From an uncultured Sphingomonadaceae bacterium (lineage in GTDB: Bacteria > Pseudomonadota > Alphaproteobacteria > Sphingomonadales > Sphingomonadaceae), in contig CALLJS010000026.1 in the NCBI GenBank assembly GCA_938050045.1, forward strand, positions 1 through 49,743: a stretch of 49,743 nucleotides of DNA. The letters run 5' to 3'. The notes under the pieces were generated by a model. That model did not search any database. It saw nothing but the letters and a program-made list of their open reading frames with translations, and was not told the origin of the DNA. The translations under genes and the position numbers were made by a program. How positions within the stretch are numbered: the stretch's first letter is position 1; each line of letters opens with the position of its first letter. Positions 4,030-49,743 of this stretch are shown in pieces.

Positions 4030-4464
4030 ATGGCTGAACGCCAATCAGAACCCTCAATAGATGAGATATTGTCTTCGATTCGCAAAGTGATAGCGGAGGA
4101 TGATATGGTTGATAATGGTCTCAATGAAGCGGCTTTTGATACAATATCATCAACCGATGGTAGCGCATCAAAGCATGATAATGCCCAATCTGAAAATGAT
4201 GTCTTGGAATTAACGTCCATGGAAGATGATTCTCTGGTTAATCAAGAAACCGCACAAGGTTTGCGGCAGGGCCTCTCTACGCTAGCTGCGTTAAGCCAAC
4301 CAAGCGTGCGGCCACAAATCGTCCGTTCAGGCGAAACATCATTAGAAGGCCTCGTCACCGAGATGCTACGCCCAATGATGAAAGAATGGCTCGATCAAAA
4401 TTTACCACCATTGGTCGAATCAATGGTCGAACGCGAAATCAAACGCATCACCAAAAAAGACTGA
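4030..4464 (+). CDS. PopZ-like DUF2497 protein
   Basis: A 144-aa protein with the bipartite layout of the alphaproteobacterial DUF2497/PopZ family. The conserved N-terminal helix MAERQSEPSIDEILSSIRKVI comes first, then an acidic low-complexity middle (about residues 25-85) and a conserved C-terminal helical block (SLEGLVTEMLRPMMKEWLDQ onwards, about 98-144). In Caulobacter, PopZ forms a polar matrix that binds ParB and cell-cycle proteins. The family is larger than characterised PopZ, so that role is inferred. An AAGGGGT Shine-Dalgarno precedes the ATG. Its place between tolC and valS is the usual alphaproteobacterial order, apart from the S9 peptidase. Confidence 0.88.
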   Translation: MAERQSEPSIDEILSSIRKVIAEDDMVDNGLNEAAFDTISSTDGSASKHDNAQSENDVLELTSMEDDSLVNQETAQGLRQGLSTLAALSQPSVRPQIVRSGETSLEGLVTEMLRPMMKEWLDQNLPPLVESMVEREIKRITKKD

Positions 4465-4547
4465 TATTTCTGTCATAATATTCGCAAAAAATATCTGCAA
4501 AAGCTTATTTTGCTTGCGCACGAAACATGTCTTGATAATCTAGTTAA

Positions 4548-6596
4548 ATGAAAAATTATAAATATGCGGTATTGACCGCCCTCGCCAGCACTATTCCAAT
4601 ATTAACAACACCTGTCGTTCAGGCGCGTCCGATGACGGCCGAAGATTTGGCGGCGCTCAAACGTGTTGGCGCACCTGCCCTATCACCCGATGGCAAGAGC
4701 ATGGCATTCACCGTGACCAGCACCGATTTGGCAGAAAATAAACGCAACACGATATTGCACATACAAAAAGTTGAAGAAAATCAATCAACCCCTCTTGCAA
4801 CTAAAGGGTCTGCGCACAGCCCTGAATTTGCAGCGGATGGTAGTCTTTATTTCATTAGCGATGCCAGCGGTTCAGAACAGATTTGGAAACATAAAGACGG
4901 CAGGCACAGCCAAGTCAGCACTTTCAATGTCGATGTCGCAGGGTTCAAACTTTCTGCGGACAATAAAAAAATATCTATATGGGCTGACGTTTCAACGGCC
5001 TGTAATGACCTTAATTGCGACAAAGAAATAGCGGATAAAGATACGGCACTTTCTGGGCCAGGTACGGGACGCGAATATGATAAATTATTCGTGCGGCATT
5101 GGGGAAGCTGGGAAAAAGGCGAACATCATAGCCGATTATTTACCTATGATATGGGCGCAGAAGGGCTATCCAATGGCCGTCTTATCAGCAGGCAAATCGG
5201 CGATACGCCTAGCAAGCCCTTTGGCGGCGGCGAAGAGATTGCCATGACAGGCGACGCTATTTTTTATACGCTGCGCAAAGCCGATAAGGATGAACCACGC
5301 TCCACCAATTTGGATATTTATCAGGCATCCGCTGGCGGCGTTACTATCAATATCACCAAAGATAATATGGCCACCGATACCATGCCAACACCATCCCCCA
5401 ATGGCAAATATTTGGCTTATGCGGCGATGAAACGCCCAGGGTATGAGAGCGATAAGCTCATCTTAAAAATCCGCGATCTCAATAGCGGGAAAGTACGCAG
5501 TCTGACTGAAAATTGGGATCGCAGCGTTGGTTCTATCAGTTGGAGCGCAGATAGCAAAAACCTCTTTATCACGGCGCAAGATATATTGGATCATCCTGCG
5601 TATCGCATATCCGTAAAAGGGGGAGAACCTGAACGCCTGACAAAAGGCGGCAATATTAATAATATAGTGCCGCTAAAAGATGGTTCGATCATCTATACCA
5701 AAAATGATATAAATTCGCCCAATGAGATTTTTCATTATAACAAAAAATCTGGTGCGAAAAAACTCACCAATATCAATGATGCTTTGCTAGCCGAGATTGA
5801 TAAAGTGAATATACAACGCTTTGATTTTGCGGGGGCGCATGGCGATCAGATTTGGGGGCAAATTATCAAGCCTGTGAAAAATCCTAGCATCCTTGCAGGT
5901 GAAAAATTACCCGTGGCGTTTTTGGTGCATGGCGGGCCGCAAGGCAGCTTTGGTAATAGCTGGTCATTTCGTTGGAATCCCAAAGTCATAGCATCGCAAG
6001 GCTATGTAGCGCTCACTGTGGATTTCCATGGCAGCGTTGGCTATGGACAAAAATTCACCGATAGCATCAACCAAGATTGGGGCGGTAAACCATTAACCGA
6101 TTTGAAACGCGGCCTAGCCGCTGCGGCTGAAATCGATCCACAAGCCGACATTGATAATGCCTGCGCGCTCGGCGCATCCTATGGCGGCTATATGATGAAT
6201 TGGATCGCGGGTAATTGGAACGATGCTTTCAAATGTATCGTCAATCATGCGGGATTATTTGATCTGCGCCAATTTGCCTTTGAGACAGAAGAATTATGGT
6301 TTGACGAATGGGATCATGGTGGCCCTTGGTGGGTGCGTAAAGATGGTGAAAAATGGAATCCCGTCAACCATGTCACCAATTGGAAAACACCGATGCTGGT
6401 GATTCATGGTGAATTAGACTTTCGCGTCCCTTATTCGCAGAGCATCGCCGCTTTTACCGCCCTGCAACGCCAAGATATTGAATCAAAATTGCTCATATTC
6501 CCTGATGAAAATCATTGGATCAATAAACCACAAAACAGCATCCAATGGCATGAAAATATATTTAGTTGGATGGAAAAATATACAGCAGAGGAATGA
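4548..6596 (+). CDS. S9-family prolyl oligopeptidase-type peptidase, exported
   Basis: A 682-aa serine peptidase of the dipeptidyl/acylaminoacyl-peptidase class. A cleavable signal peptide (about 1-26, ending VQARP) is followed by a beta-propeller region (about 35-400) and a C-terminal alpha/beta hydrolase domain. The catalytic serine lies in GASYGGYMM (about 544), the acid in GELDFRVPYSQS (about 625) and the histidine in PDENHWI (about 656). HGGPQGSFG forms the oxyanion region. Such periplasmic enzymes trim short peptides, so a nutritional role is likely. It appears to be transcribed alone. Confidence 0.92.
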   Translation: MKNYKYAVLTALASTIPILTTPVVQARPMTAEDLAALKRVGAPALSPDGKSMAFTVTSTDLAENKRNTILHIQKVEENQSTPLATKGSAHSPEFAADGSLYFISDASGSEQIWKHKDGRHSQVSTFNVDVAGFKLSADNKKISIWADVSTACNDLNCDKEIADKDTALSGPGTGREYDKLFVRHWGSWEKGEHHSRLFTYDMGAEGLSNGRLISRQIGDTPSKPFGGGEEIAMTGDAIFYTLRKADKDEPRSTNLDIYQASAGGVTINITKDNMATDTMPTPSPNGKYLAYAAMKRPGYESDKLILKIRDLNSGKVRSLTENWDRSVGSISWSADSKNLFITAQDILDHPAYRISVKGGEPERLTKGGNINNIVPLKDGSIIYTKNDINSPNEIFHYNKKSGAKKLTNINDALLAEIDKVNIQRFDFAGAHGDQIWGQIIKPVKNPSILAGEKLPVAFLVHGGPQGSFGNSWSFRWNPKVIASQGYVALTVDFHGSVGYGQKFTDSINQDWGGKPLTDLKRGLAAAAEIDPQADIDNACALGASYGGYMMNWIAGNWNDAFKCIVNHAGLFDLRQFAFETEELWFDEWDHGGPWWVRKDGEKWNPVNHVTNWKTPMLVIHGELDFRVPYSQSIAAFTALQRQDIESKLLIFPDENHWINKPQNSIQWHENIFSWMEKYTAEE

Positions 6597-6938: not shown

Positions 6939-9884
6939 ATGACTATTGATAAAAATTTTGATCCTGCCGCTATTGAAACCAAATGGTATAAGCATTGGGA
7001 GAGCGAGAATAGCTTTCGCCCCGAGCGTCCCGATGCGCCCGCCTATACGATTGTGAATCCGCCGCCCAATGTAACGGGCAGTCTACATATTGGGCATGCG
7101 CTCGATAATACGTTGCAGGATATTATGATCCGCTATGAGCGGCTGCGCGGCAAAGATGCATTATGGGTGGTTGGTACCGATCATGCGGGTATCGCAACCC
7201 AAATGGTGGTCGAGCGCAAAATGGAAGCCGCTGGCGATAGGCGCAGTAATTATCGCCGCGAAGATTTCATCAAAAAAGTATGGCAATGGAAAGAAGAAAG
7301 CGGCGGCACGATAACGCGCCAGCTTCGCCGCCTTGGTTGTTCGATGGATTGGTCACGCGAGCAATTCACAATGGACCCGCATTTCACACAGGCCGTGACC
7401 AAAGTTTTTGTTGATCTTTATAATAAAGATTTAATCTATCGCGACAAAAGATTGGTCAATTGGGACCCTAAGCTGAAAACCGCAATTTCCGATTTAGAGG
7501 TAGAAACCAGAGAGATAAATGGTAATTTCTGGCGGTTCAAATATCCATTGGCCGCCGATGAAAATGGCAATGCCGTCACATTTAATGGCCCAGATGGCGC
7601 AGGCCAAGATTATATCGAGGTCGCCACCACCCGCCCCGAAACTATGCTGGCCGATATGGCGGTTGCGGTGCATCCCGATGATGAACGCTATGCCGATGTG
7701 GTTGGTAAATATGTGCAGCTACCCATTACGGGTCGCCATATTCCGATTGTGGCCGATGACCATGCCGATCCAGAGCTTGGCAGCGGTGCAGTGAAAATAA
7801 CACCAGGCCATGATTTTAACGATTTTGATGTGGGCAAACGCGCTGGTTTTGCGCCTGCTGAGATGCTGAATATGTTTGATGGCGACGCCAATGTTTGTCA
7901 AGTGAGCGATGGCCTGATCCCTGATGAATATATCGGCCTGCACCGTTTTAAGCGTGAGACAGAAAATGGCGCCAAAATCCAAGCACGCGAATTGGTTGTC
8001 AAAGCACTCAAAGAGCTTGGCCTGTTAATCCCGCATATCAGCAAAAATAAAAAGGGCGAAGAGGTGATAAGCGATGCCGAACCGCGTATCATTCAAACGC
8101 CCTATGGCGATCGCGGCGGTGTGGTGATTGAACCTTGGCTCACCGATCAATGGTATGTTGATGCGCAAACACTCGCTAAGCCAGCGATTGAAGCGGTCAA
8201 GAATGGCGATATCGAAATCGTCCCCAAAACATGGGAGAAAACCTATTTCAACTGGATGGACAATATCCAGCCATGGTGCGTTTCACGACAGCTTTGGTGG
8301 GGGCACCGCGTTCCTGTTTGGTATGGGCCAAAGCTAGAGCATGAATTCGAACATGAGCATGATTGTGAACAGGTGCATCTTGTCGCCAAAGATGAGGATG
8401 AAGTTCGCAATCTTGCCGCTGTTCGCTATTCCACAACGCCAGAAAATATTTTGATTTTTAACAACGAAGAAGAACGCACAACTGCAGAATTACAAAGTCA
8501 AAACATGTTGAAGACGATACTTGTGCGCGACAATGACGTTCTCGACACTTGGTTTTCATCGGCGCTCTGGCCCTTTGCAACATTGGGCTGGCCCGAGAAA
8601 AATGCACCATTGGTTAGCAAACATTATCCCAATGATTTGTTGATTAGCGGCTTTGACATATTATTTTTCTGGGATGCGCGCATGGCGATGCAGGGCATCG
8701 AATTTATGGGCGAAGGCGGCAAAAAGCCTATCGAGCAATCGCGCCCATGGAAGACATTATATCTGCACGGTCTGGTTCGCGCCGCCGATGGCCAGAAAAT
8801 GTCTAAATCCAAAGGCAATGTCGTCGATCCGCTGGGCCTGATTGATGAATATGGCGCCGATGCTTTGCGCTTCTTTATGGCGGCGATGGAGAGCCAAGGG
8901 CGCGACATTAAAATGGATGATGAGCGCGTCAAAGGTTATCGCAATTTCGCAACCAAGCTCTGGAACGCAGCGCGCTTTGCCCAATCCAATGGCATAAGTG
9001 CATCGCAAAGCCTATCCGCACCAACGGCATCGCTAGCCGCCAATCGCTGGATTATCGGCGAAGTGCAAGAAACGCTCATCACGCTCGACAAGGCACTGGC
9101 CGATTTGCGTTTTGATGCAGCAGCGAACACCATCTATCATTTCACATGGGATCGTTTTTGCGATTGGTATTTGGAGCTTATCAAGCCGATTATCCAAGGC
9201 GATGCTGAAGCAAGCTCAGCACAGATGCGTTCTGATGCAGAGGAAACCCGCCAAGTTGCGGGGTGGGTGCTCGACCAAATTTTGGTCATGCTGCACCCCT
9301 TTATGCCATTCATCACCGAAGAATTATGGCATGCGATGGCATCTTCTGAAAGCGGAAAATCGGCGCGTAATTATGACATCATCCTCGCCAAATGGCCCGC
9401 CCCTAAGGCGCAAATTGACGGTGATGCTAAGGCAGAGATTGATTGGATTATCGCCTTTACCAGTGCCATGCGCAGCGCGAAAAATGAACTCGGTATTGCG
9501 CCTGGTGCAAAGCTAGAGTGTATATTCCCAAACGCATTACAGGGGCGCGTCAACGCATTGCAAAGCACATTAGAGCGCGTCGCGCGGATAGCATCTTCTT
9601 CCTTTGGCGATGCCCCCGATGGTGCATCGATGCAATTGGTGGTCGATGGGCAGACGATTATTATACCGCTCGAAGGGGTAATTGACATAGAAGCGGAAAA
9701 AGCGCGTCTTGGCAAAGCTTATGAGGCGGTGAACAAAGAAGCGGGCGCGCTAAAAGGGCGTTTAAGCAATGAAAATTTCGTTGCGCGGGCAAAACCCGAA
9801 GCAGTGGAAAAAGCGAAATCTGATCTGGCCGAGAAATCATCAGAAGCCGAACGGTTGAAAACCGCTTTGGAACGGCTTGGTTGA
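6939..9884 (+). CDS. valS: valyl-tRNA synthetase
   Basis: This 981-aa cytoplasmic class I aminoacyl-tRNA synthetase charges tRNA-Val. The HIGH motif is intact ([10 protein letters not shown], His at about 50) and KMSKSKGN lies near residues 621-628. The editing (CP1) domain contains [20 protein letters not shown]-terminal coiled-coil arm of about 65 residues (from [16 protein letters not shown] to the end) is typical of ValS. ATG 6939 is preferred because the family's first helix ([17 protein letters not shown]) starts there; the upstream in-frame extension is unconserved in character. Confidence 0.97.
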
Positions 9885-9905
9885 TTGTGATTACGCAATG
9901 ATGCT

Positions 9906-9926
9906 ATCCTGAACCAAGTTCAGGAT
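9906..9926. repeat. short palindrome (ATCCTGAAC-CAA-GTTCAGGAT)
   Basis: A perfect 9-bp inverted repeat with a 3-base loop, 22 bases after the valS stop. TCCTGAAC...GTTCAGGA palindromes are a widespread intergenic repeat type in sphingomonads and relatives. It may act as a bidirectional terminator or mRNA 3' stabiliser for valS. It runs straight into the tandem repeat that follows. Confidence 0.7.
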
Positions 9927-10015
9927 GACGGTTGTGGGTTAAAGGATGAAGGTTGTGGGTTTAAGAGTGACGGTTGTGAGTTAAAGAATGATGGTTGTGG
10001 GTGAAAGGATGACAT
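9923..10015. repeat. 21-bp tandem repeat, about 4.4 copies
   Basis: Four imperfect 21-base units occur at 9923, 9944, 9965 and 9986, with a partial fifth at 10007. Each has the core GGTTGTGGGTTAAAG followed by GATGA with small changes. The array starts inside the right arm of the palindrome at 9906-9926, as if the palindrome's GGATGAC end had been duplicated. 21 is divisible by 3, but no gene covers it. Confidence 0.9.
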
Positions 10016-10159
10016 ATTTCTCCATAAAATATATTTCTCTAAAAAACCCTATCGAGTGAAAAAAGCTTATAGCGCGATGAAATATAAGAAACGAACTCAT
10101 AGGGAAGACATCGGCCCTTCAAGACAAAGCAACGTAAATATAGGCTATGATATAAGTTT

Positions 10160-12232
10160 TTAGCGTCCCTGCGAGCGCCAGCGGGCAACAACACGCTCCA
10201 GCATCTCAGTCTCGCCCCCCGATTCTTGCCATAATTCAGAGAAGATTGGATCTTCCGATGCAGGACGCTTTTCTTCTTCGAGCGTATCAAGCGACACACG
10301 AATAGGAATAGCAACACCTTCGCCGCAGATAATAACCTCTCGGTTGCGTAAAGCGGGTATCGCATCCACGAAACCGCGCGCACCTTCGGGCATAGCGGCC
10401 CGCACAAAGGCTTGGTCACGATCATTGTTGAGACGCATAGAGAGGATCGTACCGCATTGCGATAAAACACCCTCTGCTAAATCTGAGGGACGTTGCGTAA
10501 TGAGGCCCAATGAAACACCATATTTACGACCTTCTTTGGCGATACGTTCCAAAATTTTCCGAACCGCAGAATTAGCAGCAACATGTTCATTTGGAATATA
10601 ACGGTGCGCCTCTTCGCAAACCAAAAGAATAGGGTGTTGGGGTTCATTGCGCGACCAAATCGCATAATCAAAAACAAGGCGCGATAGAACCGCGACAACG
10701 GTCGATGTAATATCCGATGGCATAGAGGACACATCGATGATAGAAATAGGTTTATTATCGCTGGGTAAACGGAAAATTTTGCTGATAAAATCTGCCATTG
10801 TATCGCCAACCAACATGCCAGAGAACATAAAGCTATAGCGCGGATCCGTCTTTAATTCTTCAATCTTATTTTTCAGGCGCATAAATGGTGCAGAGGAAGA
10901 AGATTTGCCCAATTTACCCATTTCGGTTTGGATGATATTCGTTAAATCAGACAATAAATAAGGGATAGGAGAATCTACGGTCAATTTGCTGATTTTCTCT
11001 GCCATACGATTTTTTGAACGTGCCTGTATCAAACAACGCGATAAAATTTCGCAATCCAATTGACGTTCATCGCCACTGGATGTCACAAAAACTTCGCAAT
11101 GCTCGTTAAAATTCATCAGCCAATAAGGCATAGCAATATTGTTCACATCAAACACAGTTCCATTGTCTTTGAACGCGGCACTATATTCACCATGCGGATC
11201 TATCATCACAATATGACCTTGCGGTGCAAGTTTGCAAATACGGTGCAATATCAAAGCCGCCGATGTTGATTTACCCGTACCTGTCGAACCCAATAGGGCG
11301 AAATGTTTGCCCAGCATCGCATCGACATAGAGCGCGCCGCGAATATCCTTTGTTGGGAAAACAGTCCCTATTTCGGTGTTAGCGCGTCCATCGGCTGCAT
11401 AGATTTGCTTCAAATCAACGCTGCTGACGGCAAAAACTTCGCTGCCTGGTACAGGATAGCGCGTCACACCACGGCGGAAATTAAAAATTTTACCTGTTAA
11501 TTTCTCTTCATCGCCTTCGCCCAAAAAGTCAACAAATGCGGTTATAGAATTGCAATCCGACATATCTAATTTTTGTGTTCTAATACTTGCTAGGAGCCAA
11601 ATTGAACCGACACGGATTTTAATCTGCGCGCCGACTTGCCCTGCCATATTGATACTTGGGTCGTCATATGTATGCAATTTTTTTAATATAGATGGATCAA
11701 TGCAAATTTGTGAACTCGCGCCGGCTATTTCGGTAACAAAGCCAATACGGTGATGTCCGCGTTCAGAGCGCACGGGCTGTTTGTTTTCAGAGGGAGCGAG
11801 GGAGATAGCCAATTTTTGCGGCTCTGGTTCTTGCGGCTCTGGTTCTTGCGTAGCATTCCCCTTTGGTGCAGTTATTTTTGGCGCAATTTCTTGGTCTGCT
11901 CTATTTTGAACCGATATTTTCGGGGTCTCTTGCTTATTGTGTTGCCGTTCCAAATCATCCCCCATAATTTCATTCTGCACAGGATTGGTAGCATTGATTT
12001 GCGGCTCAAATCCAACAGGCTGTTCTATTTCTTGCTCGTGCAAAAGGTCAGCAGAGATTTTTTGAGTTGGGTTCATCGGCTTGAAATGTACGGGAGCAAT
12101 CTCTGCATCATCTTGCAAGCTCTTATCTTCTTGAGACGGTGTATATGACATATGACGCTGCGGGCTGCCATCATTGACTACAGGTTTTGGGCTACCCTCT
12201 GATGGCGTATGTCCAAATACTCTATTTCTCAT
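10160..12232 (-). CDS. HerA/FtsK-type DUF87 ATPase with long disordered N-terminus
   Basis: A 690-aa P-loop ATPase of the HerA-FtsK superfamily. Residues 1-160 are polar and repeat-bearing (EPEPQ twice). A HAS-barrel-like beta domain follows, at about 160-290. The motor domain then shows LLGSTGTGKST (Walker A, about 313-323), MIDPHGEY, and LLVCEEAHRYIPNEH (Walker B with glutamate, about 528-542). GLITQRPSDLAEGVLSQCGT is the arginine-finger/sensor region. HerA ATPases translocate DNA, classically with NurA nuclease, but no nurA-like gene is near, so it is an orphan. Such solitary bacterial HerA-like proteins have unclear roles in DNA maintenance or defence. The gene is monocistronic, with an inverted repeat (12303-12327) in its leader. 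Confidence 0.88.
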   Translation of the reverse strand: MRNRVFGHTPSEGSPKPVVNDGSPQRHMSYTPSQEDKSLQDDAEIAPVHFKPMNPTQKISADLLHEQEIEQPVGFEPQINATNPVQNEIMGDDLERQHNKQETPKISVQNRADQEIAPKITAPKGNATQEPEPQEPEPQKLAISLAPSENKQPVRSERGHHRIGFVTEIAGASSQICIDPSILKKLHTYDDPSINMAGQVGAQIKIRVGSIWLLASIRTQKLDMSDCNSITAFVDFLGEGDEEKLTGKIFNFRRGVTRYPVPGSEVFAVSSVDLKQIYAADGRANTEIGTVFPTKDIRGALYVDAMLGKHFALLGSTGTGKSTSAALILHRICKLAPQGHIVMIDPHGEYSAAFKDNGTVFDVNNIAMPYWLMNFNEHCEVFVTSSGDERQLDCEILSRCLIQARSKNRMAEKISKLTVDSPIPYLLSDLTNIIQTEMGKLGKSSSSAPFMRLKNKIEELKTDPRYSFMFSGMLVGDTMADFISKIFRLPSDNKPISIIDVSSMPSDITSTVVAVLSRLVFDYAIWSRNEPQHPILLVCEEAHRYIPNEHVAANSAVRKILERIAKEGRKYGVSLGLITQRPSDLAEGVLSQCGTILSMRLNNDRDQAFVRAAMPEGARGFVDAIPALRNREVIICGEGVAIPIRVSLDTLEEEKRPASEDPIFSELWQESGGETEMLERVVARWRSQGR
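11816..11850. repeat. 15-bp in-frame tandem repeat inside the HerA-like gene
   Basis: Two exact copies of a 15-base unit (TTGCGGCTCTGGTTC) plus one third copy encode the repeated EPEPQ in the disordered N-terminal region of the HerA-like ATPase. The frame is preserved, so length variation between strains would be tolerated. Confidence 0.85.
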
Positions 12233-41941: not shown

Positions 41942-42855
41942 CCAAATAATATGGCCGATAATTTGCGCCTATTTTGGGCTGTCCAAGGGTCAGTAAGGCC
42001 GACCAATTCAAATATTTCAAGCAGCCTGCTGCGCGCTGCCCCTTCGTTCCAGTCACGGTCATTGGCAATGCTTGCCAACAATATATCAGCAGCTTCGTCG
42101 CGCAATCCGCCAGCAAATAGGGCATTGGCCAATACAAATGCCGCTTCTCCATCCTCGGGGTTTTGCGCATATACATGTCTAAGCCCTTCTAATTCATCGG
42201 GTGTTTTGCTCTCAGCCGCAAGTGTAAGTGCGCTTTGCGCGCGCAAAATAGCAGTCTCTTTCTTCTGCTCATCGCTCAATTGGTCGAGCATCTCTTGGGC
42301 TTTTTCAACCTCTCCCAAGGCAACCATAGAACGAATCATTCCCGACAAAGCATCAATATTATTGGGCAGAATGGTCAATATCTGGCGGTAAATTTCATAA
42401 GCCGCTGGCGCTTCATTGCCACCCAGTGCCTCTTCGGCCGCCGCTATCATCGCTGCTAATTGTTCGGGCGGGACACCGCCATCGCCGCCGCTTTGAATCG
42501 GTAATTTTTCAAGCAATTCATCTAATGTTTTGGTCAATTCTGCTGCGGTGCGCGCTTGCGTTAAATCGGCTACTGGCTGCCCTTGAAACATAGCATAAAC
42601 CGTGGGGATTGAACGGATTTGAAACTGCGATGCGATAAATTTTTCGGCATCAACATCTATTTTTACCAGCAACACGCCTTTATCCGCATATTGGGCTGCA
42701 ACTTTTTCCAAAATCGGGGTAAATTGTTTGCAAGGCTCGCACCATTGCGCCCAAAAATCTAATATCACCAATTTTTCCATAGAAGGTTTGATGACATTGT
42801 CTTGGAAAGCACTTAGTAGCTGCTGCTCCTCTGTCGTCAATGATGCTGTGGCCAC
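41938..42855 (-). CDS. thioredoxin-TPR co-chaperone (YbbN/CnoX-like)
   Basis: A 305-aa cytoplasmic protein. An N-terminal thioredoxin domain (about 10-120) with an intact WCEPCKQF active site is joined to a C-terminal tetratricopeptide region (about 135-305). This is the YbbN/CnoX layout; in E. coli CnoX protects substrates from oxidative aggregation and hands them to GroEL and DnaK. Here both CXXC cysteines are present, so redox activity is possible. Coupled to the LON-domain gene. Confidence 0.9.
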   Translation of the reverse strand: MATASLTTEEQQLLSAFQDNVIKPSMEKLVILDFWAQWCEPCKQFTPILEKVAAQYADKGVLLVKIDVDAEKFIASQFQIRSIPTVYAMFQGQPVADLTQARTAAELTKTLDELLEKLPIQSGGDGGVPPEQLAAMIAAAEEALGGNEAPAAYEIYRQILTILPNNIDALSGMIRSMVALGEVEKAQEMLDQLSDEQKKETAILRAQSALTLAAESKTPDELEGLRHVYAQNPEDGEAAFVLANALFAGGLRDEAADILLASIANDRDWNEGAARSRLLEIFELVGLTDPWTAQNRRKLSAILFG

Positions 42856-43119
42856 TGTTATGCTCCTTAAAATGAAATGCTCAATTGGCTAAATCTATGA
42901 TCAAATTGGCTTAAACAATCATAGCAGTGCTAGTCTCTCCTTCACCATATAGGATATAATGGCGAAAAATGAAGCTTAATCACGCTAAAATTGCCATGTT
43001 CCATATAATTAAACCATCTTAGCCCATTTTTATGCGCATAGAGAGACGTTTTAGGCTTGCAGCTATGAAAATCCCATGCTAACCGCCCTTTTCTAATGTT
43101 GGAAACACGCCAACATCGA

Positions 43120-43194
43120 GCGGGCGTAGCTCAGTGGTAGAGCATCTCGTTGCCAACGAGAATGTCGAGAGTTCGAATCTCTTCGCCCGCTCCA
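43120..43194 (+). tRNA. tRNA-Gly (GCC)
   Basis: A complete cloverleaf: acceptor GCGGGCG/CGCCCGC, anticodon arm CTCGT-TGCCAAC-GAG with anticodon GCC, T-arm GAGAG-TTCGAAT-CTCTT, discriminator T and an encoded CCA. Its 3' end borders an integrase relic, making it the likely attachment gene for an island. Confidence 0.97.
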
Positions 43195-43318
43195 GTTGTT
43201 TCAAGACTTTTGACGATTAAGCCGATGTTTTCAGAGGTTTTTTCGTTTTTTAGTATAAATAAAAATTACGTCGGCTTCATTTTTGTGCCTCATATTATGC
43301 CCCAAACGTGTCCCAATA

Positions 43319-43724
43319 ATGGAGCGGCAAGACGGCACATCCATATATATAACTGCGCAAACGCAATGAACGCTGGCACTATTATCGCCGCGTGCCGAAC
43401 CAATTTGCACCTTTCGATGACCAGGAAAAGATCCGCACATCGCTGAAGACGGACTCGATTGAAGTAGCGCATTTCCAGCGCGATGCCATGGAGGTATCTG
43501 ATGATGATTACTGGATCTCTATGCTTTACCTAGAAGACGGCGAAGTGTCTGGTGATGCGGGCCAACGGCTCAAGGATTCGTTTGAACGCCGCTACCGCTC
43601 GGCCAACTCAAGGGCCATCGCGCGGGGCTTTGTCAATTCCCCGATCGAACAGAACATAACCAAAGACGACATCGGCGATTTGCTCGACCGGCTGAAGGTC
43701 GTGGTGCCTGTTACTGCCAAATAA
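43319..43724 (+). pseudogene. tyrosine-type site-specific integrase, N-terminal relic
   Basis: ATG 43319 starts MERQDGTSIYIT, a common integrase opening, but the frame runs into a stop. The continuation LRKRNERWHYYRRVPNQFAP and IRTSLKTDSIEVAHFQRDAM is in another frame from about 43353. This is the SAM-like N-terminal domain of phage/island integrases of alphaproteobacteria (DUF6538-like). It ends KVVVPVTAK at 43724 without the catalytic R-H-R-Y domain. It is therefore a frameshifted, 3'-truncated relic beginning 125 bases after tRNA-Gly, as expected for an integrase at its attachment site. GC is markedly higher than the bacteriocin-like genes that follow. Confidence 0.78.
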
Positions 43725-43731
43725 GCGACTA

Positions 43732-43765
43732 TCGCGGCGGGTGTTTTTGTCCCCGCCCGCCGCGA
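43732..43765 (+). terminator. GC-rich hairpin after the integrase relic
   Basis: TCGCGGCGGG and CCCGCCGCGA form a perfect 10-bp stem around a 14-base loop that contains the T-run. No T-run follows the stem, so it is a strong hairpin but not a canonical terminator. Confidence 0.55.
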
Positions 43766-43850
43766 CCAAATCTGCCCGACGTCTGAGGTCACCCTATAGT
43801 GCCTAAACCAAACAGGCGTTTTCCATGTCTTCCATTTCATCATCTATGAC

Positions 43851-44102
43851 GCGACGCAATATGAAACACTGGTTGGTGATATGGGGTCAACCCTATCTGA
43901 CGGTCAAAAACAACGCGTGCTGCTTGCCCGTGCTTTATATCGCCGTCCTAAAATGCTCATTATGGATGAAGGGACTGCCCATTTGGACAGCGTAGATGAA
44001 AAAGCTGTGAGCGAGGCCATTGCGCAATTGGGTATAATGCGCATCATTATTGCCCACCGCGAAGAAACTATCGATGCCGCGGATAGAATAGTTTCAATAT
44101 AA
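43851..44102 (+). pseudogene. peptide-exporter ABC ATPase, C-terminal relic
   Basis: The frame reads TQYETLVGDMGSTLSDGQKQ, then RVLLARALYRRPKMLIMDEG, TAHLDSVDEKAVSEAI, and RIIIAHREETIDAADRIVSI. This is the last ~84 residues of the nucleotide-binding domain of a bacteriocin/microcin-type exporter (CvaB/RaxB/PCAT style, normally C39 peptidase + TM + NBD, about 700 aa). The signature motif is LSDGQ instead of LSGGQ. Walker B (MLIMDEG) and the switch His (IIAHR) are present, but Walker A, TM domain and peptidase are gone. A stop lies upstream at 43848. It precedes two double-glycine-type peptides, its presumed former cargo. Confidence 0.85.
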
Positions 44103-44204
44103 AATGGTAATATATCATAATTTAGGGTTGAATATATATATGTAAGCTATAACAATATTTACATAGTCATGTGAATGTCATAGTAACTGTTAAGGAGAGT
44201 ATTT

Positions 44205-44429
44205 ATGTATATGAAGAATGATTTTACTATACCTGTAACAAATCAAAGTACGGGAATTCAAGAATTAACATTCGATGAAGTTCAAATGGTAGATGGAGCA
44301 GGATTGTTTCTTTTAGCTGCGCCTTATATAGGAAAAGCAATTGGCTATGGTTTAGCTTCCGCTGCAGGGATTGCGACTGGTGTTGCTATAACAAAAGGTG
44401 CTACTGAATTAGCAAAATTAGTAAAATGA
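44205..44429 (+). CDS. double-glycine-type leader peptide, class II bacteriocin-like precursor
   Basis: A 74-aa precursor with a strong AAGGAG site 8 bases before the ATG. Residues 18-32 (IQELTFDEVQMVDGA) match the bacteriocin leader pattern (E-L-x3-E-(L/V)-x2-(V/I)-x-G-(G/A/S)), with GA at the processing site. Cleavage would release a 42-aa core starting GLFLLAAPYIGKAIGYG, rich in Gly/Ala, cationic (four Lys, one Glu). It has two GxxxG motifs (G11-G15, G23-G27) as in pore-forming two-peptide bacteriocins. The stop overlaps the ATG of a 37-aa membrane protein. An exporter relic lies directly upstream. Activity is not shown, and a quorum-type peptide is an alternative. Confidence 0.78.
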   Translation: MYMKNDFTIPVTNQSTGIQELTFDEVQMVDGAGLFLLAAPYIGKAIGYGLASAAGIATGVAITKGATELAKLVK

Positions 44430-44539
44430 AAGCTATAGATGCTCTATTAGAGGATGGAATTGGAATAAACGATCTATTTTGGTTCCTGCCTCTTGTCTTT
44501 GGAATTTTTATTACAGCATTTTTAATTGAATATCTATAA
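44426..44539 (+). CDS. 37-aa single-TM protein, possible immunity protein
   Basis: ATG 44426 overlaps the stop of the leader peptide gene (ATGA). The product has an acidic N-terminus (MKAIDALLEDGIGIND) and one transmembrane helix (about 17-36, ending TAFLIEYL). Tiny membrane proteins placed directly after class II bacteriocin genes are commonly self-immunity proteins; that role is inferred from position and shape only. The next peptide begins in the same frame immediately after this TAA. Confidence 0.6.
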   Translation: MKAIDALLEDGIGINDLFWFLPLVFGIFITAFLIEYL

Positions 44540-44710
44540 GAATTAGCTATAAATATTACAGAACTTAACAATGATGAAATAGATAATGTAGATGGAGCTT
44601 TTCCTCCAGCTTTATATATAATAGGAAAAATTGCTTTTGCCGCGGCGACATCCTCAACAGGTAAAGCTATATTTGCAGGTTCAGCTGCTGTTGCAGTTTT
44701 TAGTGACTGA
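44540..44710 (+). pseudogene. second bacteriocin-like peptide lacking a start codon
   Basis: Directly after the TAA at 44537-44539 the same frame reads ELAINITELNNDEIDNVDGA, again a GA-type leader. A 36-residue core follows, starting FPPALYIIGKIAFAAATSST and including GKAIFAG, ending in TGA at 44708-44710. The cores of the two peptides share the GKAI-x2-G element, so they look like paralogues or two partner peptides. No ATG, GTG or TTG lies in frame between the two stops. It is therefore either a relic, initiated at a rare ATA/ATT codon, or made by readthrough. It is followed by a terminator shared with the upstream genes. Confidence 0.65.
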
Positions 44711-44742
44711 CTATTAGAAAAACAGTATGCTTAATATTATGG

Positions 44743-44773
44743 AAAACGAGCCTTTATGGCTCGTTTTTTATTT
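44743..44773 (+). terminator. terminator of the bacteriocin-like locus
   Basis: AAAACGAGCC-TTTAT-GGCTCGTTTT gives a 10-bp stem followed by TTTATTTT, 33 bases after the second peptide stop. It closes the 44205-44710 transcription unit. Confidence 0.93.
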
Positions 44774-45505
44774 TCCTATTACCATCATAATCAATATTAT
44801 TTCTGGGCCAAACTCATATTTATCATTCTAATATTTGATAGGATGGTGGTCTTTTCTGGTACTGAACTCGTTATGTTAAACTGTGTCTTAAGACCAGCTT
44901 TTAGAGCACATAATTCTTGCTTTGATATTCGGGACTTTCTCTCTCCTGCCATTGCTTGGCACTGGACACCCTAACCAGCAACAATAGTCCATATCGCCGC
45001 CGTCCAGTTACTCATCAATGTCGATTTAATTGGGTTTCTAATCTCGTAAGCTGGTTATTGTTTTTTGTTATGAGTTAGGTTGCAAATAAGACCCAATATC
45101 CTTGAACATTAAATTTGTTCAAGACAAGTTACAAATTTCATCTATTTTTCATGTCATTTTGACGCAGCACCCGCCTGTTCAATAATTACTGCCCCTAGAT
45201 AATGAGCTTCTTTCACAAGAAATAATCAATCACTGGAATCTATAATCATTGGTTTTACAGTAAAAATTTCCCTATTTTTCGAAAATCTTACTTCATTTAA
45301 TTTATAAAAATTCATTAAATACAATATTTTAACACCTGTAGAATTCTGTAGAATGCTGCATTCAGTATTCTGGAGTATTCTAGGTTTGAGCTTGGAGAAA
45401 ATTATTGGCTATTGTCAATGCAAGCACAGAGAAAAGCACAGAGAAACTCATCTCATATGCAAATGATTTTTGTCGCTTGAGCATAATAAATGACGGAGGC
45501 ATAAA
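44774..45505. other. AT-rich gene-poor region
   Basis: No convincing gene. A minus-strand 51-codon frame (44797-44952, opening MAGERKSRISKQELCALKAG) is possible but has no recognised relatives or clear ribosome-binding site. An 8-bp hairpin CTTGAACA/TGTTCAAG lies at 45101-45123. CATTTTGACGC at about 45153 recurs at about 48750. Confidence 0.4.
45337..45383. promoter_or_regulatory. 10-bp-phased TAGAAT/ATTCT repeat cluster
   Basis: Two adjacent 10-base units (TGTAGAATTC, TGTAGAATGC) are followed, after 7 bases, by two more adjacent 10-base units (AGTATTCTGG, AGTATTCTAG) that are roughly their inverse. The 10-bp phasing puts all copies on one DNA face, about 125 bases before the isochorismatase-like gene. 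This looks like a cooperative regulator site. The AraC-family gene downstream is a candidate regulator (inference). Confidence 0.45.
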
Positions 45506-46348
45506 ATGAAAAACATATATTATAAACGGCATAGTAAGATTGGATTGACAGCACTCATTGCGCTCGCGCTTTCAACGACTGCATGCACTGAAAATCGCGC
45601 TCAACAAAATGAATCGAAGCCGGCTCAAATGTCAGCCCAAGCCGCAACTGCAATAATACCTCCGCAAAATGATGGCCTTCCAAATCCAGGAATGACAATT
45701 ACAAAGGGTCAAACAGCAATCGTGATTACAGACCCCCAAAATGATTTCTTATCGCCCGATGGTGTAACTTGGGGCGTGGTTGGCAAGAGCGTCGTGCAGA
45801 ACGATACAGTTAAGAACCTTGAATCGCTTTTCAAAACAGGGGCTGATATTGATATGCCAGTCTTCGTTTCGCCTCACTATTATTTCCCGCATGATCATCG
45901 CTGGAAATTTGAAGGTGCTCTTGAAACATTAATGCATTCCATAGATATGTTCGACCGAAGCGGTGCGCTTAACCTGGATAAGTTTGAAGGTTCTGGTGCC
46001 GACTGGCTTGATCTGTACAAACCATATATCACCAATGGCAAGACTATCGTCACCAGCCCTCATAAAATTTACGGCCCAGAGACAAATGACCTTGCTTTGC
46101 AATTGCGTAAAGCCGGTATTTCAAAAGTTATTTTGGCGGGTATGTCATCAAACCTCTGCACTGAATCGCATATGCGCGAACTTGTTGAACAAGGCTTCGA
46201 GGTTCATGTCGTTACAGACGCTACAGCAGGTGCCATAACCGAACATTATGATGGATATGCTGCCTCGCTGACCAATTTTCGTTTTATTGCCAATCAAATT
46301 GACAATACGGACAATACGATCGCTGCAATAAGAACCGCTTACAAATAA
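45506..46348 (+). CDS. isochorismatase-like cysteine hydrolase, lipoprotein
   Basis: A 280-aa protein with a lipoprotein signal peptide (ALIALALSTTAC, lipobox Cys about 27). A Gln-rich linker and an isochorismatase-fold domain follow (about 65-280). The catalytic triad is visible: Asp in AIVITDPQNDFLSP (about 76), Lys in TSPHKIYGPETNDLA (about 188) and Cys in ILAGMSSNLCTESH (about 217). Relatives hydrolyse isochorismate, nicotinamide or carbamates, and the envelope location argues against siderophore synthesis. GGAGG lies 6-10 bases before the ATG. An AraC regulator follows 69 bases later on the same strand. Confidence 0.85.
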   Translation: MKNIYYKRHSKIGLTALIALALSTTACTENRAQQNESKPAQMSAQAATAIIPPQNDGLPNPGMTITKGQTAIVITDPQNDFLSPDGVTWGVVGKSVVQNDTVKNLESLFKTGADIDMPVFVSPHYYFPHDHRWKFEGALETLMHSIDMFDRSGALNLDKFEGSGADWLDLYKPYITNGKTIVTSPHKIYGPETNDLALQLRKAGISKVILAGMSSNLCTESHMRELVEQGFEVHVVTDATAGAITEHYDGYAASLTNFRFIANQIDNTDNTIAAIRTAYK

Positions 46349-46417
46349 ATTTATAGTATTTCGCGCGCTAGAATAAGCGCATTTTAATCTTGTATTTCAA
46401 ACCTAATGGAGAGACCT

Positions 46418-47374
46418 ATGCAACCGCTAACAATTAATCATTTAGATACAGAGGCCCATTCCTACTCACCCAGTGCAGTAAAGCTGTCTCCTGATGCAGT
46501 AAAGCAATCTCCTGCGCTTAAATCGGTGTCTGCGCTCTCCATTGTAAAAAATATATCGAATTTGAAACGCGAGAGTCAGAAAGTCATGATTCATGTCTAT
46601 GAAGGAGACAAAGCACCCGATCAAAAATTCTTTGCCGATGGCTATGATAAACTCATAATTCCATTTTCACAGCTAGAGCTTATTTATTCTACCCTTGGAA
46701 ACCCAGCACGCCTAAAACTATCTCCTGGTCAGGCTTTCTTTATCCCAGCGGCTGAATCGAATATTGCGCTGAGCCTAATTTGCGGTGATGAATATTTGAT
46801 AGTGGATATTTGTAATAAATTAAGACATTCGCTGTGTGACCCAAGCGATAATTCCGTTATGCGGATGATGCAGCGCGCGACATTGCTGTGCAATACGCAT
46901 CATCTTTTGGCATTTGCGCATACGGCGCGTCGATTGATGCTCTCCTCAATTCCACAAAAGGGCCGTACCATAGAGGCGCTTGGTATCCTTGCCGTTACAG
47001 AGGCCCTTATCGGCCTTAAAGAACGCTCCAAACAAAATGCTACTCTAACAGCCGCTAAGATTGAAAAAGTGGATGCTTATGTGCGAGATAATATTGATAG
47101 AAATTTATGCTTGCAAGAATTAGCAGAGCTCTGCGGACTATCGGCACATTATTTTGCGCGCTCATTTAAATCTGCTACAGGAAAAACACCCTATCAGTTC
47201 ATACTCGATAGACGGATTGCCCTAGCGCGGAAACTGCTTGCCGATACCAAGACATCTATCGCCTGTGTAGCCTATGATGTTGGTTTTTCATCGCAATCCC
47301 ATATGACGGATTTGTTTCGCAAAATTCTTGGTACAACGCCGGGCCGTTATAGATCTGAACTAAAAAAAGCTTAA
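46418..47374 (+). CDS. AraC-family transcriptional regulator
   Basis: A 318-aa regulator. The N-terminal part is a cupin-like sensor region with LKLSPGQAFFIPAAESNIAL. The C-terminal ~100 residues form the two-HTH AraC DNA-binding domain: NLCLQELAELCGLSAHYFARSFKSATGKTPYQFI, in pieces, then SIACVAYDVGFSSQSHMTDLFRK and TPGRYR. Residues about 16-35 contain a short repeat (SPSAVKLSPDAVKQSPALKS). GGAG before ATG 46418 makes it the better start than ATG 46406. It probably controls the upstream isochorismatase-like gene; that is inference from adjacency. Confidence 0.9.
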   Translation: MQPLTINHLDTEAHSYSPSAVKLSPDAVKQSPALKSVSALSIVKNISNLKRESQKVMIHVYEGDKAPDQKFFADGYDKLIIPFSQLELIYSTLGNPARLKLSPGQAFFIPAAESNIALSLICGDEYLIVDICNKLRHSLCDPSDNSVMRMMQRATLLCNTHHLLAFAHTARRLMLSSIPQKGRTIEALGILAVTEALIGLKERSKQNATLTAAKIEKVDAYVRDNIDRNLCLQELAELCGLSAHYFARSFKSATGKTPYQFILDRRIALARKLLADTKTSIACVAYDVGFSSQSHMTDLFRKILGTTPGRYRSELKKA

Positions 47375-47905
47375 AGTGAAATAGCTTAGAAAGTCATAAA
47401 TATCATATCTATAGTCTGATAATAGGGCTAGAGGAAATCATAATTTCAAGTTTCATCTTGTCTAATTTGCCAAATCGAGGGATCTCATAAGAGACAAAAA
47501 CTACTTTGCCAGATACTATCTGTCTTTCTAATATTATGATAGCGCAGTGAGGCCTTGTAAATGCAGTCGATGTGAGAGTGTAAACGCAACAAACCCATTG
47601 CGCTATATCAGGCCCAAGCTCTAAGAGAAATGATAATCAGCCAGCAATGCTGGGAATTATATATCCTAATATTCATCGTATCATTTTTGGCGCGTCTTGC
47701 CTCTGCAGCTTGTGATGTTAGCATATATAATTTGGTCTGCAGACATTCAGTTAATATAGGCCCAAGCACAAGAAATATTAGAGCAAGATACTGAAATTAT
47801 AGGGATCTGATAGGCGATCCGAATATGTATCGATAATCATTTAATCACGCTAGGATGCAAACGAAATAAGATTGAGAGTAATATGCACTTAATATCATCA
47901 ATTCC
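47375..47905. other. gene-free region
   Basis: No gene on either strand. A related phrase (AGGCCCAAGC followed by AGAAAT a few bases later) occurs near 47608 and 47757, possibly an old duplication. A small CCAGC-AAT-GCTGG hairpin lies near 47640. Confidence 0.4.
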
Positions 47906-48010
47906 CGGTATTTAATTATACCGAAGCTTACCACTGACGGTCGGCGGTCCTCCCATTATGGCCTTCCGTCTCCACTGGGCGGGTGTTTATCTTAAACACC
48001 TGCCTTTTTT
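47906..48010 (+). ncRNA. candidate structured small RNA with terminator
   Basis: Three structured elements lie in 105 bases without an ORF. CGGTAT-N6-ATACCG is at 47906-47923. A longer hairpin closed by GACGG (from 47936) and CCGTC (ending about 47970) has a C-rich CCTCCC inside. A textbook rho-independent terminator is at 47978-48010 (GGCGGGTGTTT/AAACACCTGCC, then T6). There is no gene immediately upstream that needs this terminator (AraC ends 600 bases before). The CCUCCC loop is like the anti-Shine-Dalgarno loops of alphaproteobacterial sRNAs. Function unknown. Confidence 0.5.
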
Positions 48011-48134
48011 GTGCGTTAAATATAAAATATACTTTATTATCAGATGCTTAAATTAATCTTATCGTCCAAAAGCGTAAATCTACAAAACCACTTAATCTGA
48101 AATACATCCACTATTCTGATACGATAGATTATAA

Positions 48135-48155
48135 GCTGAAGATCGCATCTTCGGC
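48135..48155 (+). promoter_or_regulatory. leader hairpin of the OsmC-family gene
   Basis: GCTGAAGAT-CGC-ATCTTCGGC forms a 9-bp stem (one G-U) with a 3-base loop, 30 bases before the ATG 48185. It may stabilise or control the mRNA or be an operator; an AGAGAG box lies between it and the start. Confidence 0.5.
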
Positions 48156-48184
48156 AGAATAAACATTATCATAAAGAGAGCAAA

Positions 48185-48634
48185 ATGGCATTTACAAAAC
48201 ATGACATACATCCCGCTGATATTCCTTCTGGTGCTATTCATATTAGCCCCGATGATTCAGGCCCCTTAGCGCTATCAATGAAGACTGAAAATCACGAAAT
48301 TTTCGCAGACGAACCCAAACGCTTAGGTGGTAATGATACCGCACCTAATCCTTATGATTTTTTGCACGCGGGGCTCGGCAGTTGTACGGCTATCACACTT
48401 CGCTTTTATGCTAAAAAACATAATTTGGTTCTCGAAGATTTTCACGTTATTGTCTCTTCGAAAAGAGATAGCGAAGGGCAACTCATTATCTTAAAAGAAC
48501 TGATCTTTCATGAAAACTTCAGCGAAGAAGAGATCGACTATTTGGTAAAAGCTTCTAAAAAATGCCCTATGCACAGTGATTTATTGAGATCTATTGAAAT
48601 CAACACCACTGTCAAACAAGAACATGCATCGTAA
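48185..48634 (+). CDS. OsmC-family peroxiredoxin-like protein
   Basis: A 149-aa OsmC/Ohr-fold protein. The two redox cysteines are present in LHAGLGSCTAITLRFYAKK (about 64) and ASKKCPMHSDLL (about 126). The arrangement GGNDTAPNPYDFLHAGLGSC is of the YhfA-like OsmC subgroup, not Ohr. Such proteins reduce organic hydroperoxides or other thiol-reactive stressors. It is transcribed alone, with a leader hairpin upstream and an imperfect hairpin downstream. It fits with the katG/yaaA stress theme of the window. Confidence 0.92.
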   Translation: MAFTKHDIHPADIPSGAIHISPDDSGPLALSMKTENHEIFADEPKRLGGNDTAPNPYDFLHAGLGSCTAITLRFYAKKHNLVLEDFHVIVSSKRDSEGQLIILKELIFHENFSEEEIDYLVKASKKCPMHSDLLRSIEINTTVKQEHAS

Positions 48635-49684: not shown

Positions 49685-49743
49685 ATGATGATGGAAAATA
49701 GCGCACGAAGCGGCCTGCTCCAAGCGATTGCAGCTTATATTAT
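49685..49743 (+). CDS. partial CDS, probable EamA/RarD-type transporter
   Basis: An AGGGG box precedes three consecutive ATG codons (49685, 49688, 49691). The visible 19 residues, MMMENSARSGLLQAIAAYI, match the opening of RarD-like EamA permeases (GLLLALAAY-WG...), with the first membrane helix beginning at the window edge. The rest is outside. The call rests on very few residues. Confidence 0.4.
   Translation, partial: MMMENSARSGLLQAIAAYI

Follow-up and report, generated by a model that had tools for sequence, protein, structure and literature searches.

A probably decayed, exporter-less class II microcin-like two-peptide cassette in a tRNA-Gly genomic island of an uncultured Sphingomonadaceae bacterium

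In Enterobacterales, class II microcins of the microcin V type are made from short precursors with a GG or GA leader, together with a C39-peptidase ABC exporter (PCAT), an HlyD-type fusion protein, a TolC-type outer membrane protein and a tiny hydrophobic protein encoded beside the peptide. As far as the available text of PMC9746304 goes, GA is valid in place of GG in class II microcin leaders, and the verified immunity proteins of this class are 51-216 aa long, lie near the peptide and usually span the membrane. Class IIb bacteriocins comprise two complementary peptides, and those of the lactobin A/cerein 7B type are recognised by the model TIGR03949 (curated cut-off 21.5 bits). The nap island of Neisseria is, by its description, acquired DNA of low GC content that encodes a number of small GG peptides as well as a putative immunity-like protein. 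Among the matches listed, literature titles and abstract openings contained no two-peptide bacteriocin of sphingomonads, which is not proof of absence.

The window analysed here, a stretch of 49,743 nucleotides from an uncultured Sphingomonadaceae bacterium, contains a locus with likenesses to each of these systems (Table 1). As in the microcin V type, short precursors with GA leaders lie beside a tiny hydrophobic protein, and the PCAT and HlyD-type protein are found in relatives of this genome; the locus differs in that its exporter is fragmentary and that two peptides lie around the 37-aa protein. Measured against a class II microcin locus, it has the GG/GA leader, and of a C39 ABC transporter and an HlyD-type protein only fragments were found in the genome. 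Two leader-bearing frames in tandem recall the complementary peptides of class IIb, and, judged from the genes alone, the two might act in synergy. As with the nap island, the cassette stretch is A+T-rich, with a GC content of 0.35-0.36 (500-base windows, 44000-44999) against 0.41-0.53 at 42000-43999; in the nap island, unlike the window, a candidate C39 peptidase and an outer-membrane protein are also encoded, according to the available part of PMC11798529. We consider it probable that the locus is a class II microcin-like two-peptide cassette that has decayed and lost its exporter, lying in a tRNA-Gly genomic island.

Table 1. Features of the cassette and its surroundings, by window coordinate
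Feature	Coordinates	Strand	Details
tRNA-Gly(GCC), left island boundary	43120..43194	+	ARAGORN, Rfam
Tyrosine-recombinase integrase, N-terminal fragment	43392..43724	+	110 codons; catalytic part missing
3' remnant of C39-peptidase ABC exporter (PCAT)	43848..44114	+	~residues 609-697 of 699; premature TAA; ORF 43881-44102
Peptide 1 precursor, 74 aa	44205..44429	+	leader 44205-44300 ending VDGA; core 44301-44426 (42 aa); stop 44427-44429
37-aa hydrophobic protein, candidate immunity protein	44426..44539	+	membrane span judged by eye
Peptide 2 open frame	44540..44710	+	leader ends VDGA at 44599; core 44600-44707 (36 aa); stop TGA 44708-44710
Intrinsic terminator	44739..44771	+	14-pair stem and T run; fold -19.3 kcal/mol, z -4.19
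Short stretch common to G035 PCAT island	44800..44928	-	antisense frame ISKQELCALKA...; 79% DNA identity over 128 bp, 70% over 43 residues

The leader of peptide 1, IQELTFDEVQMVDGA, heads a hydrophobic core with a net charge of +3, 40% Gly+Ala and two GxxxG motifs, and a good Shine-Dalgarno-like AAGGAG stands ahead of the uninterrupted ORF. The 37-aa ORF overlaps the stop of peptide 1 via an ATGA at 44426. An earlier, sequence-only reading of this DNA had described a 74-aa peptide with a leader and a cationic, Gly/Ala-rich core bearing GxxxG, a 37-aa frame overlapping its stop and one strong terminator, all of which were borne out. It had also recorded a second leader and core; that leader scored highly (see below) and the GKAI-x2-G element is indeed common to cores 1 and 2, but peptide 2 is not a normal ORF, as no ATG, GTG or TTG occurs in frame between the stop of the 37-aa ORF (44537-44539) and the leader. 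Peptide 2 follows the TAA of the 37-aa ORF without a change of reading frame and has only rare start possibilities, such as ATA at 44549 or ATT at 44555. Core 2 is hydrophobic, with a net charge of +1, 36% Gly/Ala and no GxxxG. Peptide 1 and the 37-aa protein are the last uninterrupted frames with standard starts. The exporter fragment, the tRNA-Gly, the integrase fragment and the missing start of peptide 2 had not figured in the earlier reading. A promoter scan gave 7 sites against 7.6 expected, and hence no promoter is claimed. A single-sequence AlphaFold2 model of peptide 1 had one helix (residues 31-73) at low confidence (mean pLDDT 65, pTM 0.28), too weak for a fold search.

A leader profile was built from 21 distinct 15-residue leaders (22 rows, one leader present twice) taken from small ORFs lying at most 4 kb from C39-type exporters; it was trained on relatives without the window, and all six frames of the window were scored. 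The leaders of peptide 1 (34.4 bits) and peptide 2 (34.3 bits) were the top two sites in the window, the next-best reaching 13.8 bits and the maximum over 40 simulated windows 18.2 bits, while leave-one-out scores of the training leaders ranged from 14.8 to 37.0 bits. Both window leaders are real and of the double-glycine type.

Among the relatives, a PCAT match of more than 200 residues was present in 16 of the 21 regions examined, and 14 of the 16 have a leader-bearing small ORF no more than 4 kb from the exporter and on its strand (11/13 regions picked by exporter match, 3/3 picked by peptide match); in both regions without such an ORF the PCAT is near a contig edge. A leave-locus-out scan was run on 12 exporter loci, L036 being omitted because its exporter is in pieces, at a line of 18.2 bits that misses some leaders, since real leaders when left out score as low as 14.8. 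It gave 20 leader matches within 4 kb of PCATs (104,368 bases), none in the 41,868 bases more than 4 kb away and none in 49,817 bases of 10 non-PCAT control loci. Three of the 20 were MLELTADRLVLVDGG, which lies in frame within a ~620-aa ABC ATPase, and these matches are therefore false. GA-ending leaders occurred in 4/14 relative loci (L033, L038, L040 and L104). Leader peptides were also seen in two other genera of this bacterial family, IQELSFDEVGLVAGG (L100, G188, at 7623) and CAELTFDEIESVNGG (L101, G424, at 7629), with no PCAT match in the 15 kb examined at each.

A protein database search returned P0002 as a relative of peptide 2 (E 2.1e-4), and a profile with two rows, peptide 2 and P0002, then matched P0003 (E 7e-17), which is not part of that profile; the E-value of P0002 itself in this search is meaningless because P0002 is one of its rows. 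P0003 is named a lactobin A/cerein 7B class IIb bacteriocin by its source, and the core AAATSSTGKAIFAG is common to all three peptides. P0002 (24.5 bits) and P0003 (24.2 bits) both pass TIGR03949, whereas neither window peptide was matched by that model, at E up to 5 in the NCBIfam scan, or by any other NCBIfam or Pfam model. P0002 had no relative in the genome-contig search, and P0001 and P0002 had no match in the plasmid searches. Across the order, the two-row profile matched 65/396 genomes at E <= 0.1, this genome included, mostly weakly; six of these places were inspected, and those in G084, G057, G041 and G188 were at or beside leader peptides, while those in G275 and G138 had no leader above 15 bits. 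The leader profile, the PCAT-adjacent peptides in relatives and the passing of TIGR03949 by P0002 and P0003 support the predicted assignment of the locus to a bacteriocin-like class with two GA-leader peptides and a tiny membrane protein. The window cores, putative bacteriocins, were set against Pfam, NCBIfam, PHROGs and PADLOC and against the protein database.

Peptide 1 found itself alone in a word-based search of ~5.8 billion proteins and had no relative in viral-contig or genome-contig searches, and a convincing relative of core 1 was present in 0/98 other genomes searched. Peptide 1 matches were obtained in 10 further genomes of 99 (E 0.006-0.09); by eye, those in G088 (L021) and G021 (L027) resemble leader peptides with other cores, that of L027 adjoining a PCAT, and the remainder seem due to chance. 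A weak match to PHROG 31587, a family without known function, covers just the end of the leader and the first core residues (15-39, E 0.0028) and was set aside. For the 37-aa protein, a search of 395 other genomes of the order turned up nothing convincing, the best E-value being 0.007 for a place within a 258-aa frame, and its YobI match was set aside at 12.7 bits against a cut-off of 33. None of the three small proteins reached the cut-off of any family in Pfam, NCBIfam, PADLOC or PHROGs. The sequence-only reading had staked itself on conservation of leader and core in relatives and had suggested a search for the same triple arrangement. Conservation holds by half: the leader is conserved, as is core 2 in two relatives, but no relative of core 1 was found. 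The triple arrangement was not found elsewhere, the 37-aa protein having no convincing counterpart in those 395 genomes.

The closest comparison for the exporter came from G035, where the order (L031) is tRNA-Arg, an integrase gene on the opposite strand, HlyD, an intact PCAT and, just 3' of it, a leader peptide. The G035 leader, ILELTFDEVDLVIGG, resembles those of the window, and GAGTATTTATGTATAT, upstream of the peptide, is common to it and window peptide 1, while its core is wholly unlike the window's, hydrophilic and, by eye, not bacteriocin-like; the leader alone thus does not fix function. Such a core beside an intact exporter would fit the view that the window peptides are double-glycine signalling peptides and not bacteriocins, as would the export of signalling peptides by C39 exporters described in the available part of PMC7018657. 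However, both window cores are hydrophobic and Gly/Ala-rich, and P0002 and P0003 exceed the cut-off of the class IIb bacteriocin model. With the look at possible receptor or sensor-kinase genes confined to family scans of selected neighbouring ORFs, we hold a signalling role to be very unlikely. Since a PCAT tail is followed by a peptide in both genomes, the window keeps the exporter-tail-to-peptide order with ~87% of the exporter lost. The island of G035 lies at another tRNA and hence occupies a different site from that of the window. On the - strand of L031, G035 has the intact exporter (9245-11344) and, ~3.2 kb downstream, its final ~130 residues once more (5627-6022); between the two lie a leader peptide and genes for an S9 peptidase and a 230-aa protein, and the G035 counterpart of window 44800-44928 lies beside this tail copy.

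The PCAT remnant of the window is 88% identical to the G035 PCAT, has one internal TAA and matches Pfam ABC_tran. The LSGGQ-type motif is the ABC signature, and it reads LSDGQ in the remnant versus LSGGQ in both G035 copies. Compared with these two copies, the remnant has 24 synonymous substitutions and 7 or 6 that alter the residue (dN/dS 0.066 and 0.056), and the copies differ mutually by 20 synonymous and 1 non-synonymous. As the differences of the remnant are mostly silent, either the loss is young on the scale of that divergence or the remnant still has some role; the pattern suggests that the exporter may have been lost recently compared with the split from the G035 copies.

A working exporter encoded elsewhere and missed, through an assembly gap or an atypical peptidase, would leave the cassette functional, and the assembly is indeed a draft (28 contigs, 99.28% complete) in which the island still continues where the contig of the window breaks off, at 49743. 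Yet a Peptidase_C39 search of the 28 contigs was empty, where the control search was positive in 8/14 genomes, and the G035 PCAT query matched the remnant plus 17 further stretches, which leave its residues 1-151, the peptidase part, uncovered. The sole match to the G035 HlyD protein, which itself matches HlyD_3, is a piece of residues 1-90 of 394 on contig C24 (76% identity). We regard a missed exporter as extremely unlikely. Within the genus, Peptidase_C39 matches, not all of them exporters, occur in 17 of 45 genomes, this one counted in the 45, and in 14 of 34 among the better assemblies. With a broken exporter, no C39 found, a piece only of HlyD and a peptide 2 without a start, the locus is most likely non-secreting at present. 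Of the compact bacteriocin cassette proposed earlier, the class is supported and the working state is not.

Contig C24 (L109) carries a third double-glycine peptide precursor, MRNLTEYEISIVNGG (26.1 bits, 1783-1995, - strand), after which come ORFs of 68, 124 and 63 aa that look hydrophobic; the HlyD 5' fragment (610-915) adjoins the precursor. Two transposase ORFs are also present on this contig. An IS1595-type transposase ORF (4277-4834) overlaps L109 4567-4805; this stretch and L031 12568-12804, just before HlyD in G035, have 239 bp in common (77% identical). This genome contains two separate broken exporter pieces adjoining leader peptides.

The uninterrupted ORF and Shine-Dalgarno-like sequence of peptide 1 and the intact terminator mean that decay may be recent or that something is still selected. 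A retained, functional module without exporter, whose peptides act inside the producer or are released by lysis, or whose 37-aa protein has been kept to protect against relatives still producing the bacteriocin, would account for the intact peptide 1, 37-aa frame and terminator, and also for the second locus on C24, where a leader peptide and small hydrophobic proteins lie beside the HlyD piece, so that a peptide without exporter occurs twice. The Nap peptides of Neisseria, which in the available text of PMC11798529 have no detectable antimicrobial activity and promote autolysis, are a loose precedent. In contrast, peptide 2 has no standard start, the 37-aa protein falls under the 51-216 aa range of verified class II microcin immunity proteins, and it and core 1 are without convincing relatives, so that long-term conservation cannot be shown; we judge such a module rather unlikely. 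That the leader peptides and hydrophobic proteins beside broken exporters at the two loci reflect repurposing, for autolysis or retained immunity, and not plain decay, appears distinctly unlikely.

The setting of the cassette was defined by synteny. Alignments of G035, G022 and G011 to the window end at 43197-43198, just past the 3' end of tRNA-Gly(GCC), which lies at the synteny break in each of them, and beyond it the DNA of each relative differs. The integrase fragment is 35% identical (E 2.8e-19) to a 481-aa ORF on contig C12 of this genome, which matches DUF6538 over cut-off and Phage_int_SAM_5 just over it, with Phage_integrase (E 2e-5) below cut-off; the fragment itself had no Pfam or NCBIfam match and found nothing in 44 other genus genomes. 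The right end of the island is not visible because the contig ends. By these sequence features, the cassette lies in what we read as a decayed tRNA island. Window 45506-48634, on the far side of the break, encodes an isochorismatase-domain protein, an AraC-type regulator and an OsmC-like protein. Beyond the same tRNA-Gly, G022 has a 175-aa C-terminal piece of HlyD (HlyD_3; L097 3980-4507, - strand) and, by eye, an integrase-like start. The HlyD piece suggests that the tRNA-Gly site may be an insertion site repeatedly used and decaying.

Export-tagged peptides beside the stub of a pump point to a leftover weapon rather than a working new one. Under the preferred reading of a decayed cassette, the ancestral state, as reconstructed from intact relatives, would have had an HlyD protein and a C39-peptidase ABC exporter that recognised the leaders and cut after GA, releasing two short, hydrophobic, mainly helical cores. 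These may have acted on related bacteria at their membranes, with the producer presumably protected by the 37-aa membrane protein. In the present genome the last ~89 codons, with a premature stop, are what is left of the exporter, and peptide 2 has no standard start.

Thus in this genus double-glycine cassettes with very variable cores sit near tRNA and integrase genes, and such cassettes can lose their exporter while the peptide frames persist. For genome miners the locus is a warning that a good leader and core do not equal a working bacteriocin, and it offers a test of the fate of bacteriocin and immunity genes once the weapon is disarmed.
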